A stretch of DNA of 64,000 nt from Nemania diffusa (taxonomy: Eukaryota > Ascomycota > Sordariomycetes > Xylariales > Xylariaceae), in the NCBI GenBank assembly GCA_038501195.1, contig JBBPUQ010000004.1:4788001-4852000 (forward strand), in the 5' to 3' direction. The first letter of the stretch is position 1. Every line of letters starts with the position of its first letter. The translations under genes and the position numbers were made by a program. Positions 31,383 through 54,907 of the stretch are shown here, piece after piece. The notes under the pieces are model-generated. The model ran no database searches. It worked only from the letters and a program-made list of their open reading frames with translations, and was not told the origin of the DNA.

Positions 31383-34300
31383 ATGAACCCCGCTACTGAG
31401 ATGCCTTCGCCTATGGAAGGTGCTGTTACGCCAATGCCCGACCATGGAAGTTATTCAAGTGAAACTTCAAGCGAAGCCTCCGAAATCGACGATGGAGCAC
31501 ATATCGCCCCCGTTGGCGTTGATACGCCTGTTCAGGAGAGCTCTACCATTGGCCCTATAGGCCCTATAGACCCTGCAGACCCTCTGGAGGAGGAGATGGT
31601 CATACACGCTCGCGCATATCAGATCGAGATGTTTGAGAAAAGCCTCAAACAAAATATCATTGTTGCAGTACGTCAAATTACCTCGCTATTTGCGAGCCAG
31701 TTTGTCTAACATGTGCTGCAGATGGACACAGGAAGTGGTAAAACACAGGTGTAAGTCATTGATTGCGCGCGTCCCACGAGAGCCCGATATTCTATCACTA
31801 CCTCACGGCAACATGAATTTATTTAAAGCCTTCTACGTCCATTTTAATAATTATTATTATTTAGCGCTGTACTGCGCATCCAGGCTGAACTCGAGAAGTG
31901 TACAGTCAAGGTTGGTCGATTCGCTCGCTATTCACCGATTCCCTTAGACTAACATAAGTGTTGAGATCATCTGGTTCCTTGCGCCAACTGTTGCTTTGTG
32001 TGAGCAACAATTCCGAGTCATCAAGTCTCAAATCGGAGCAGCGCAAATCAAGCTTCTGAGCGGCGCCGACAATGTCGATACTTGGTCCGATAAGCGCATC
32101 TGGGACGATTACTTGAAGGGTGTCCGCGTTGTGGTATCAACCTATCAGATCCTCCTCGATGCCATAACCCATGCGTTTGTACAGATCAGTCGACTTTGTC
32201 TTATAGTATTCGATGAAGGTAAGCCTTAAACCTATCTCACATGTAGTTCCCAATTAACAGATACTCAGCACACAATTGCACCGGAAAGCATCCAGGCAGT
32301 AAAATCATGGAACGTTATCATATAAACAAAACCAACGGTTTGCCATGTCCTGCAATCCTCGGTCTTACAGCTAGTCCAATCATGAGATCGAACATCGACG
32401 GAATTGAGAAGATCGAGCAGACTCTGGACGCTGTATGCAAGACCCCTACCATCCACCGGGAAGAACTTCTGTCTATGGTCAAACGGCCTCATTTATCACC
32501 TGTCATCGTTCCTAATTCCGGCGATCGTATCCGCGTTGAAAGTATAACCAGTCTAGCAAAGGCCGTCCGGGCTCTCGATATTTACCAGGACCCGTACATA
32601 CTACGTCTTCGAAGAGGCCAAACTGAAAACAATACATATATGCTTCGAAAGGCACTAGAAAAAAGAGATACTCCTGTAATCACGCAGATGCAATCATTGT
32701 ACCGCAAAAGCCTCGAAATTCACCGGCAACTCGGCCCTTGGGCTTCTGAATACTTCCTATACAAAGCTATTACCCAATTTCTGTCATCAGTTGAGCAAGA
32801 CCTCACCTGGTTCGAGACTTGGGGGACGGCAGAGAAGCAATACCTTAGTAACATACTTCGGCAAGTTGAGATTAAGCTACCGCGGGCATTCAAGGACACC
32901 ACCTCAGTCGACTTGTCTGACAAATTTATCGCGCTCGTCCAAGAATTACAATCAATGCCCGAAAACACGCGCTGTATTGTCTTTGTTCTCGAGACTGCTA
33001 CCGTAGCCGTATTAGCTCAGATGCTATCTACAACAGAATCGGTTAGTAGTCGATTTCAGGTCGGTACCATGATTGGGACCAGTAATTATGCCGCGCGGAA
33101 ACGAAATCTTGGGGAGATCAACCAGGTGAAAGACTACCGCGATCTTGAAGACTTTAGGATGGGCAAGCTGAATTTACTGATCGCCACGAGCATTGCAGAG
33201 GAGGGTATTGATGTTCCTGCCTGCAACCTAGTTATTTGCTTCAATACACCGCCAAATGTAAAGTCTTTCATCCAACGGCGAGGAAGGGCAAGAATGGAGA
33301 ATTCTAGGATTATCCTACTATTGGAAGAAGAATCATCTGACCAACATGACACCTGGATGAATCTAGAGGAGATGATGAAGCGGTGCTATGAAGACGACAC
33401 CCGAGTCGCTCGTGAAGTGGCCGATCTTGAATCACTAGATATCAACCCAGATGTCGCACCGTTGTACATCCCAAGTACTGGAGCTCAGCTCGATTTCGAT
33501 CAAGCAAAGTCGCATCTCGAACATTTCTGCCGAAAATTAACGTCTAAACAGTACATCGATCCTCGCCCTTACTATATCCCAGAAGAGATAAACGGGTTCT
33601 CAGATGGTATTCCGAGAATCAGTGCAGTGGTACATCTACCCTCGTCACTACCTCAAGATATCCGTCAGGTGAAAAGCCTAGGGCTATGGTACTCGGAGAA
33701 GAATGCCTTTAAAGATGCTGCGTTCCAAGCATTCAAAGCAGTCTATAAGGCCGGTCTGGTTAACGACAATCTAATGCCACTAACGGACGACATTTTAGAA
33801 GGGATTGAGACACGCAGCTCAACGATGGAGGTTAATGCACTCTGGAAACCATGGGGAAGGATTGCTCAGCTATGGGGAGAATCCGATGAGCGAGAGCAGC
33901 GAGAGCTCTGTCTCAAGGATGGCGATAGGGTGATAGCGAGGTTTGAAGCATCACTGCCCTGCCATTTCCCAAAGCTACCCCCGTTTAAAATTTACTGGGA
34001 CGCAGATAGTACGTGGACAATCGAAACAAGTGACCGCTCTAAGCATATCACGGCGTGTGCTTTGAAACAAGATCAGAGCGCGGCCTTGATTGATCTGGCG
34101 TATGGTCATCGCTGGCGGTTTGGCCATCATCGCTGGCCGGTCAAGGATTCGGCGTACATCTTACATCTCCAATCAATCGATGACATCAAATTTCATCAGC
34201 ACGTAGGACAACGGGCTGCTGAAAAGCATGCGCTTAATCCCGAATTCATAGTTCGAGACACAAGAGGGAAGCCTCACTTGTTCACGGAGTGGCTGCCTTC

Positions 34301-36036
34301 CAAGCCGTCCGAGGAATTAGGGAGGATTGGAAAGGATGTCAAAGACGAGCCAGATGATGTCCCCTGGCTGTTGCTCCGAAAATGGCCGAAGCGTAAAGAC
34401 TTTCTTCATCCAGTTATAGGTGCTCTGAGATCAGGTAAGCGAAACACGAACGCACTCCCTATCTCACATTGTACGCTGGATACCATCGACCGCTCCAAAG
34501 CTCATTTCGGGAGCGTCATCCCCTCAATTATTCATATGCTTGAGATTTACCTCACCGCAGAGGAGTTGGGCCGTACCGTCCTAGAAGAAGTCAAGTTCTC
34601 AGATTTGTCGCTCCTTTTAACTGCTATAAGCTCGCGCGCCGCTGGGGAAACAACAGACTATGAAAGGCTTGAGTTCTTAGGAGATTCAATTCTGAAGATA
34701 CTAACAACAGTATCCGTCATGATCAAGCGTAAGTCTAATACTTATTATCTCGCAATCGCCATACTGAGCTTTCTTTACAGATCCAAACTATCCAGAGGGA
34801 TATCTCACTGAAAAGAAGAATCGAATCGTCTCGAACGCGCGGCTCTGCCGTGCTTCTGTTGAAAAAGGACTAGATAAATTCATCTTAACGAAAAGGTTTA
34901 CGGGGGACGAATGGCGTCACCTCTATATCGAAGACTTACTTTCTAATGAGGAAAACACCTCAACCAAAAGAGAACTGTCGACAAAGACTCTTGCTGATGT
35001 CGTCGAGTCCCTCATCGGAGCTGCGTTTGTGGATGGGGGCATGCCAAAAGCAGTGGCTTGTCTGCAGTTCTTCTTACCAGAGGCGGAGTGGCACGACTTG
35101 ATCGAGGCACATATCCTTCTCAGCAGGAAAGATGTCATAGCGCAATCGCATCCAGTCCATGAACCTCTAGAGCAACTCGTCGGTTATACATTCCAAAATA
35201 AAGCCTTGCTCACAGAGTCTCTAACCCATATTTCCTGGGGCGTGAGTACGTCCACAGATGCTTGTATGGAGCGACTCGAATTTCTCGGCGACTCAATTCT
35301 CGATACGGTCATCGTATCGGCCATTTGGCCGCACCAGCCAGAACTCTCAAACAACGAAATGCATCTCCTGCGAACGGCTTGCGTCAACGGGGATCTACTT
35401 GGATTCATGGTGATGGAGTGGTGCGCTACGCAAGAGGCTACGGAAATATCTCCAATAGACCTCGCCACTATCGTGACTCATGAGTCGGTTCCCTTCTGGA
35501 AGTACATGAGACACAGATCCTCCAATGTCGTTGACCTCCAACGAGCAGCAGAGGAACGACACGCTGTGGAAAGAGAAACGATCCTCGATGCCATGATGCA
35601 CGGTACCGAGTACCCCTGGGCCCAGCTCGCCCATCTAGACATCCCCAAATTCTTCTCCGACATGTTCGAGAGTCTCCTGGGCGCAATATGGGTTGACTCA
35701 GGCTCTTTGGAGAGATGCAAAGATGTCGTGGAACGAATTGGGATCCTACCCTACCTACGACGCATACTACACGACAAGGTCAACGTCAGCCACCCCAAGA
35801 ACAAGCTCGGCGAGCTAGTCGGGAGAGACAACAAGAGAGTGAAATACGAGACAGAGGTCCGGATCGAAGTCGGCATGAAGGAGCTCTTCTGCAAGGTCTT
35901 TGTTGGCGAGGAGTTTATTGTAGAGGTCGGCGGCGGCGTCAACCCCGAGGAGGTTGCGACGAAGGCTGCCGACGAAGCATACCATATCCTTCTTCGTCGG
36001 GGGAATGAATCGGATAGTGAGATGACGGCTGCGTGA
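31383..36036 (+). CDS. dcl2: Dicer-like protein 2
   Basis: Six exons: 31383-31667, 31722-31750, 31865-31910, 31966-32218, 32269-34728 and 34781-36036 (1442 residues; typical for DCL2). All phases close. A disordered acidic N-terminus precedes the helicase: Walker A MDTGSGKT (Lys102) lies on the tiny 29-bp exon 2, and the DEAH box (203-206) straddles intron 4. Motif V/VI is visible in ATSIAEEGIDVPACNLVICF and QRRGRARM. A Dicer dimerisation domain follows (SHLEHFCRKL). RNase IIIa has YERLEFLGDS (1002-1011) with VVESLIGAAFVDGG, and RNase IIIb has MERLEFLGDS (1187-1196) with MFESLLGAIWVDSG, so both catalytic centres look intact. The C-terminal ~60 residues resemble a dsRNA-binding domain. DCL2 makes siRNAs from dsRNA and is the main antiviral Dicer in several filamentous ascomycetes. 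No Argonaute or RdRP gene is in the window. Confidence 0.96.
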
Positions 36037-53975: not shown

Positions 53976-54771
53976 GTATATCCCATGTAATCGCAACATT
54001 TGTTCCGTTGAAAGTCATGCATTGAGATTAGAAATAGAGCCCGCGATGAATCTACCTGGCTTTGACAATCTTTCTGTTCACTGCAAACAGATAGCACCTA
54101 GTTAACAATCTATAACAAAGAATGGGATAAGGGAACAGGCATGAATGAGCCAATATTTCTCAACCTTTACTAGAAGCGTCCGGACTGGGCCGCGAACCTT
54201 AGACTTACGTATAAACAGGAAATGACTAACAGGCCCAACACAAGTGAATCACATGCTCGTAAGGCGCTCTAAGGGAGTTAGATTTAATCCTTATCCTGAT
54301 AGTTGACTACATGGATCAGGGTCATAAGGCTTTATTCGTTTTTGTTGAACCTAAGATTGGTATCAATCTTTTTTGAAAACAAGGAGTCACTGTGAGATAA
54401 TGTTCAAGGTAAAGTACGAAGACCAATAAATTTGCCATCGAAGTCCGGAGACAACTATTCTCTTTATGAAATTCACGCCTATGTAGGTCCCGTAAGAAGG
54501 GCTTGATGAGGATGAATATTGGTAGCTATTTTGTTGTCATTTCCACGTGCCAATCGACGCACGGACCATGTACCATGCAGAGATCACCAGCTAGCCTATC
54601 TAGTGTGCTCTAAGGCATGCACTTAAAATTAAAGGAAAAAAAAAAGTCAGCGAATACAGTAATGAACCAGGAGAAAAAAGGGCAAAAACGGGAAAAAGAA
54701 AATACCTAAGAGAAGGAAAAAAAAAACCAGTGGTTGCTACTTCTAGTTTAACTAGAAGGCATTAGGAATTG
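53976..54771. other. intergenic region
   Basis: About 800 bp with A-rich runs at 54640-54726. It includes the likely Pol III terminator of the tRNA gene. No protein gene recognised. Confidence 0.5.
54717..54726 (-). terminator. T10 tract, likely RNA polymerase III terminator
   Basis: Ten consecutive T on the minus strand, starting 45 nt downstream of the tRNA-Lys 3' end. This is the first strong T-run beyond the tRNA and is consistent with Pol III termination. Confidence 0.65.
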
Positions 54772-54907
54772 AGCCCAATGCGGGGGTCGAACCTGGTTGT
54801 TGATGTTAGCGAATTTTGTTGCTACTGATTTTTTCTTGGTAGAAGAACAACTTACCCGCAACCTTGAGATTAAGAGTCTCACGCTCTACCGATTGAGCTA
54901 ACCGGGC
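54772..54907 (-). tRNA. tRNA-Lys(CTT) interrupted in the T-stem by a spliceosomal-type intron
   Basis: Exons 54907-54856 (52 nt) and 54792-54772 (21 nt) give a 73-nt tRNA without CCA. Acceptor stem GCCCGGT pairs with ATTGGGC (two G-U); D-arm GCTC/GAGC; anticodon stem TGAGA/TCTCA with loop CTCTTAA (anticodon CTT); variable loop AGGTT; T-stem GCGGG/CCCGC with loop TTCGACC. There is no intron at the usual position 37/38. Instead 63 bp lie between nucleotides 52 and 53, one base pair from the T-loop. The internal A box is intact, and the B box GGTTCGACCCC also remains whole in the DNA because the last intron base is G. A T10 tract follows. If the intron is not removed, the T-arm cannot form and the gene is a pseudogene; if it is spliced, the tRNA is perfect. 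Confidence 0.88.
54793..54855 (-). other. 63-bp GT-AG intron inside tRNA-Lys(CTT)
   Basis: Starts GTAAGTTGTT and ends CATCAACAACCAG, with GCTAAC about 13 nt before the acceptor. Donor, branch, acceptor and length all match the protein-gene introns of this window. GTTGTT near the 5' end and AACAAC near the 3' end can form a 6-bp helix that brings the splice sites together. Exact removal regenerates GCGG|GTTCGACC. Because G flanks both sides, the cut could shift by one base with the same product. Confidence 0.8.

Follow-up and report, generated by a model that had tools for sequence, protein, structure and literature searches.

A tRNA-Lys(CTT) gene lies on the minus strand (54907-54772) of the 64,000-nucleotide stretch of Nemania diffusa DNA analyzed here (the window); its two exons, of 52 and 21 nt, surround a 63-nt block (Table 1). 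The initial annotation had claimed that a 73-nt cloverleaf appears once 63 nt between nucleotides 52 and 53 are removed, and that the removed block begins with GTAAGT, has GCTAAC 13 nt before its end, and ends with CAG. Both claims held: cut at GTAAGT...CAG, the gene is recognized by ARAGORN as a complete tRNA-Lys(ctt) of 73 nt, and the signals read as described, in a pattern kept in nine copies of the gene. In the unspliced gene ARAGORN found no tRNA, and the Rfam tRNA model gave it 32.7 bits (gathering threshold, 29) without its T arm. The A box and B box, identified by their match to the consensus sequences, and a T-run terminator were read in the sequence and are intact in all nine interrupted genes. 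The B box is whole in the DNA of all nine because the intron ends in G, as had been pointed out for the copy in the window; after splicing, G53 makes the T stem complete again, with five of five pairs in every interrupted gene.

Elsewhere in the window lie a Dicer-like 2 (DCL2) gene (31383-36036, plus strand), whose two main exons match a Nemania diffusa protein at 98 to 99% identity (the pieces before them show only 66 to 84% as aligned), and Rgp1, which is 99% identical to a Hypoxylon argillaceum record, 87% to a full-length sequence from Nemania sp. FL0031, and 94% to a partial one from Nemania bipapillata. For lysine, Rgp1 and the main DCL2 exon together use 39 AAA and 41 AAG codons; thus, demand exists for tRNA-Lys(CTT).

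Table 1. Features of the tRNA-Lys(CTT) gene and its 3' trailer, with positions in the window
Feature	Position	Strand	Basis or remark
Exon 1, nt 1-52	54856-54907	-	Rfam and ARAGORN; identical in 11 of 11 copies
Exon 1 content			Acceptor 5' strand, D arm, anticodon arm (CTT), variable loop, first four T-stem nt
A box TAGCTCAATCGG, internal Pol III promoter	54889-54900	-	Read in sequence
63-nt spliceosome-type intron, between tRNA nt 52 and 53	54793-54855	-	Nine interrupted copies in genome
5' splice site GTAAGT	54850-54855	-	GTRAG(T/C) in nine of nine copies
Branch-site motif GCTAAC	54805-54810	-	Branch A 13 nt before intron end; CTAA(C/T) in nine of nine copies
3' splice site CAG	54793-54795	-	AG in nine of nine
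B box GGTTCGACCCC	54783-54793	-	First G is last intron base; same in nine of nine
Exon 2, nt 53-73	54772-54792	-	Carries U68; C68 in the two uninterrupted genes
45-nt 3' trailer, conserved, reaching terminator	54727-54771	-	Alignable in 11 of 11 copies
Trailer segment CCTAATGC, helix P2	54759-54766	-	Complementary to exon-2 GCATTGGG (54781-54774)
Trailer hairpin P3	54740-54758	-	Six of seven pairs with two-sided changes among 11 copies
Trailer segment GCAACC, helix P1	54732-54737	-	Complementary to exon-1 GGTTGC (54863-54858)
T run (n = 10), Pol III terminator	54717-54726	-	Read in sequence; homology between copies ends there by eye

At least 11 tRNA-Lys(CTT) genes are present in the genome (55.6 Mb in 16 contigs); a DNA search and an anticodon-arm pattern were concordant, the latter giving two additional one-mismatch matches without a surrounding tRNA. 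Gene counts are lower bounds, and refer to the best 63 of 1964 tRNA candidates and the best 47 of 2665 U6 candidates, which were scored. Nine of the 11 genes found are interrupted at the same bond (nt 52/53), by 54 to 64 nt, and these nine are spread over six contigs (C1, C3, C4, C5, C6, and C7). The tRNA part is identical across the 11 copies except for one base that distinguishes two subfamilies: the two uninterrupted genes (C7:1703703 and C8:1411023) have C68 instead of U68, and a different trailer. Exons of the nine interrupted copies show no differences over 73 positions, and GT-AG removal yields one identical 73-nt tRNA from each, which ARAGORN recognizes as tRNA-Lys(ctt) with a complete cloverleaf in nine of nine cases. 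Unspliced, none of the nine is recognized by ARAGORN without its intron option; with that option two are, L002 as Lys with a misplaced intron and L005 as Thr. The Rfam model listed two other interrupted copies among the scored candidates (63 of 1964). At L005 and L006, degenerate stretches resembling the 5' half of tRNA-Lys (CCCAGTTAGCTTCACTTGTAGCC and CCCGATTAGCTCAATCTGCAGCC) lie about 54 to 77 nt upstream of the tRNA and are perhaps remains of a tandem duplication.

Two patterns for tRNA-Lys(TTT) recognized no nuclear gene; ARAGORN later revealed one (L026, around C1:2697174-2697366), with a 23-nt intron of the ordinary kind, adjacent to the anticodon. A tRNA-Met gene directly follows L026, and the two are possibly cotranscribed. 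Contigs C12 and C13 both carry mitochondrial-looking tRNA clusters (Asn, Lys-TTT, Gly, Asp, Ser, and a TCA anticodon).

The nine introns are 54, 55, 57, 57, 57, 60, 61, 63, and 64 nt long. All begin with GTAAG or GTGAG (overall, GTRAG(T/C)) and all contain CTAAC or CTAAT, with the branch A 9 to 13 nt from the end (13 nt in seven of them, 9 and 12 nt in the remaining two); 3' sites are CAG in four, AAG in three, and TAG in two. The GTRAGT-like 5' end, the branch motif near the 3' end, and the terminal AG are the sequence features of a U2-type intron. When each intron was shuffled, GTRAG/AG ends arose by chance with p values of 2e-5 to 1.35e-4 per copy, and a branch site 6 to 20 nt from the end, given such ends, with p values of 0.05 to 0.08 per copy; the product of the latter over the nine copies is ∼2e-11 if independence is assumed, and the copies, which share ancestry, are not fully independent. 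At 54 to 64 nt, the blocks are too short to be group I or group II introns, and we rejected those classes.

Divergence among the nine copies is unevenly distributed. Mean pairwise identity is 1.00 in the exons, 0.87 at the 5' splice site, 0.37 in the intron interior, 0.55 from the branch to the 3' site, 0.82 in the trailer, and 0.61 in the T-rich stretch after the trailer; the interiors are unalignable, scoring 0.72 versus 0.71 for shuffled sequence with a pairwise aligner that produces gap-rich alignments. Changes thus appear mostly concentrated in what the spliceosome would ignore, while a decayed copy would be expected to lose exons and signals. The exons and splice signals of the interrupted copies seem to be under constraint, without decay; for the exons, gene conversion is an alternative, and could have helped to keep the nine sets identical.

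How closely these introns resemble those of mRNAs was judged against DCL2, in which a simple alignment of a homologue placed five introns, four of 50 to 55 nt and one of 114 nt, with the 5' ends GTACGT, GTAAGT, GTTGGT, GTAAGC, and GTAAGT. The description of the tRNA intron as exactly like those of neighboring genes was too strong for this one neighbor: CTAAC lies near the end of only two of the five placed DCL2 introns. By this loose yardstick, the likeness appears to be one of size and ends more than of every motif.

Forty-one matches (reversed control, 22) were obtained genome-wide with a pattern that combined branch site, AG, and B box: the nine genes and 32 others. Inspection of the flanks of 24 of these 32 revealed no 5' splice site that would complete a T stem (the best of the 24, L048, has four of five T-stem pairs, versus five of five in the nine genes), and the remaining eight form one repeat family by their matched letters (CTAATYGGGGTTAGGTTCGATTC). 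A pattern for introns one base deeper into the T loop gave 8 matches versus 11 in the control. Within the limits of the branch-site/AG/B-box pattern, tRNA-Lys(CTT) is seemingly the only tRNA affected. A dispersed, B-box-like family with CTAATYGGGGTTAGGTTCGATTCCTAA or something near it makes up 16 of the 41 pattern matches (e.g., L042, L044, L047, L048, L049, L055, L060, and L061) and possibly represents a tRNA-derived repeat.

Spliceosomal-type introns are found in another class of Pol III gene in this genome. Both full-length U6 genes found among the best 47 of 2665 candidates, L076 (C4:4312655-4312807) and L077 (C3:5853313-5853465), carry one inside the U6 body, after ACAGAGAAGAT, with GTAAGG or GTAAGA at the 5' end, CTAAC, and TAG or CAG at the 3' end; GTTCGA, a B-box-like core sequence, lies within these introns. 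A 5'-truncated U6 match, L078 (C6:1445914-1445982), is uninterrupted at the exact splice junction: it probably arose as a DNA copy of U6 RNA after splicing, but may instead be an intronless relic. To judge from the introns in both full-length genes and from this truncated copy, at least one Pol III transcript most likely already undergoes splicing in this fungus. In fission yeast, U6 splicing is established. At least one U3 snoRNA gene is also present in the genome.

Homology between the tRNA-Lys(CTT) copies runs 38 to 46 nt beyond the tRNA to the T run and ends there by eye. By eye, no shared trailer was seen for other nuclear tRNAs (Ala, Arg, Asn, Asp, Cys, Gln, Met, Ser, and Thr; one to four copies each). 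Complementarity of the trailer to exon-2 GCAUYGGG (helix P2) is kept in all 11 copies, and two of its eight pairs vary. Pairing of trailer YAACC with exon-1 GGUUG (helix P1) has at least five of six pairs in all nine interrupted copies and is not formed in the two uninterrupted copies; P1 lacks covariation because its tRNA side is invariant, and its conservation may be due to something else. Minimum-energy folds of the nine unspliced precursors contain P2 in nine, P3 in eight, and P1 in six cases, and those of the spliced form plus trailer contain all three helices in nine of nine; a cloverleaf, by contrast, is the form predicted for the mature 73-mer and for both precursors that have no intron.

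Native spliced precursors have an acceptor-stem probability of 0.00 to 0.03 in all nine copies, but values as low also occur with 1 to 44 of every 100 shuffled trailers, depending on the copy: on energy alone, loss of the acceptor stem is not specific to the native trailer, because shuffled trailers often disturb the stem too. An opening of the 5' splice site by the trailer found no support either, as predicted openness is higher with the trailer in two of nine copies and lower or equal in seven. Given both controls, the argument for the trailer rests on comparison, not on energies. We suggest, tentatively and as something rather doubtful, that the trailer could act as a clamp, pairing with both T-stem strands and the 3' acceptor strand (helices P1 and P2, alongside hairpin P3) and so holding the precursor in a non-tRNA form until it is spliced. 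Such a clamp would bar 5' and 3' trimming and export before splicing; alternatively, regulated splicing would set the supply of tRNA-Lys(CUU).

Could the interrupted copies be dead pseudogenes, with the two uninterrupted genes supplying all tRNA-Lys(CUU)? The latter are standard copies and the top-scoring tRNAs, at 70.3 bits, among the best 63 of 1964 candidates. The initial annotation had held that several intact copies elsewhere, together with no spliced product from this locus, would make the gene an inactive copy; two intact copies do exist, but they belong to the other subfamily, and the interrupted genes show constraint. Pseudogenes would hardly retain 73 exon positions without a difference in nine copies whose interiors and flanks have diverged beyond alignment, nor splice motifs in nine of nine, nor a trailer hairpin that covaries; gene conversion, if invoked for the exons, must spare the introns and would not preserve the splice signals. 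We therefore regard pseudogenes as improbable. The tRNA splicing endonuclease removes nuclear tRNA introns, whereas those of mRNAs are the task of the spliceosome; the endonuclease is not known to require GT-AG ends or a branch site. If the blocks were ectopic tRNA introns cut by that enzyme, as in archaea and Cyanidioschyzon, their position would have parallels, since introns cut by the endonuclease do occur at noncanonical positions, with bulge-helix-bulge motifs as their determinants (PMC4090602). Searching both junctions for a bulge-helix-bulge in four registers gave a full central helix (four of four pairs) in none of the nine copies, the block ends follow GT-AG and a branch site, and tRNA-Lys(TTT) in this genome has its ordinary 23-nt intron next to the anticodon, all of which makes cleavage by the endonuclease very unlikely.

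An origin of the genes as a SINE, a mobile element derived from tRNA-Lys, with splice signals and trailer as parts of the element, would fit the dispersal of the copies and, by eye, the restriction of their similarity to the transcribed unit, as well as the degenerate 5'-half-like stretches upstream of L005 and L006. Yet only 11 copies were found, and a trailer pattern matched these 11 plus six others with one mismatch (control, 1); no target-site duplications stand out from the control, the longest flank repeat averaging 5.2 nt versus 5.4 nt in mismatched copies; and other dispersed tRNA genes here likewise share a body without flanks. The tRNA part is 100% conserved, which that of SINE heads is not. 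We give this origin very little credence indeed. Retroelement primer-binding sites would have attested the mature U68 tRNA, but no exact match to it was found in the genome; there were 28 matches with one or two mismatches (control pattern, 8), 11 of them the tRNA genes themselves and the other 17 all with two mismatches. Exact-pattern scans of viral contigs gave no matches in two scans and three in a third, in surroundings without such a tRNA-Lys gene; scans of prokaryote genome contigs gave none, as expected for a fungal gene.

With the pseudogene and splicing-endonuclease readings set aside, the best reading of the sequences is removal by the spliceosome. The window very probably holds a working nuclear tRNA-Lys(CTT) gene, one of nine such genes whose T stem is interrupted by a U2-type spliceosomal intron, and tRNA-Lys(CUU) from the interrupted genes probably passes through the spliceosome. 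Interruption at the same bond, identical exons, saturated interiors, kept signals, intact boxes, a T run, and a conserved trailer all argue for it; the earlier proposal of an mRNA-type intron in a Pol III gene gains support from the comparison of nine copies, from the lack of a bulge-helix-bulge, and from the introns in both full-length U6 genes found. Pol III would transcribe the gene through its A and B boxes and stop at the T run; the spliceosome (U1, U2, and U4/U6.U5) would take out the intron as in an mRNA, with a lariat at CTAAC; the ends would be trimmed, and the ligated 73-nt RNA would fold as tRNA-Lys. Delay of cloverleaf formation by the shared trailer would be the weakest step of this proposal. 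Several points count against the scheme: AAG, which occurs at three of the nine 3' splice sites, is a weak type in fungi; the presence of two uninterrupted genes may make the cell independent of the interrupted ones; and a tRNA-Lys(TTT) gene (L026) is likewise present in the genome. Pol III transcripts also lack the cap that aids mRNA splicing; U6 is a precedent nonetheless.

A 2017 paper names U3 and U6 as the only small structured RNAs then known to carry introns frequently (PMC5832005). Fungal U6 introns, present here too, are alike in that the host of the mRNA-type intron is a short, B-box-containing Pol III gene; in the present case, however, the host is a tRNA and a multicopy family, the T stem is split, a conserved trailer accompanies the intron, and nearly the whole B box sits in an exon. 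Fungal U3 snoRNA likewise has normal spliceosomal introns in a small structured RNA, but it is not a tRNA, and, according to the same paper, its introns lie almost exclusively in the 5'-most stem-loop (PMC5832005). Ectopic tRNA introns of archaea and Cyanidioschyzon merolae also occupy noncanonical tRNA positions and are considered to be cut at a bulge-helix-bulge by the splicing endonuclease (PMC4090602); here, by contrast, there are GT-AG and branch signals, and no bulge-helix-bulge was found. Canonical nuclear tRNA introns (37/38) are similarly short and reside in nuclear tRNA genes, but differ in position, length, and signals. Among the titles and abstracts listed by searches of open-licence PMC full texts, none described a tRNA gene with a spliceosomal intron; such a report may exist among subscription papers.

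The usual tRNA finders (ARAGORN and the Rfam model) handle the interrupted genes badly, so comparable genes in other fungi may have escaped notice. The nine introns, divergent yet all at one bond, would offer a rare opportunity to learn from natural variation which features of a Pol III transcript the spliceosome requires. If our reading is correct, the border between the two splicing machineries is not absolute: a major tRNA family in this fungus would depend on the spliceosome, and translation capacity would be linked to splicing.
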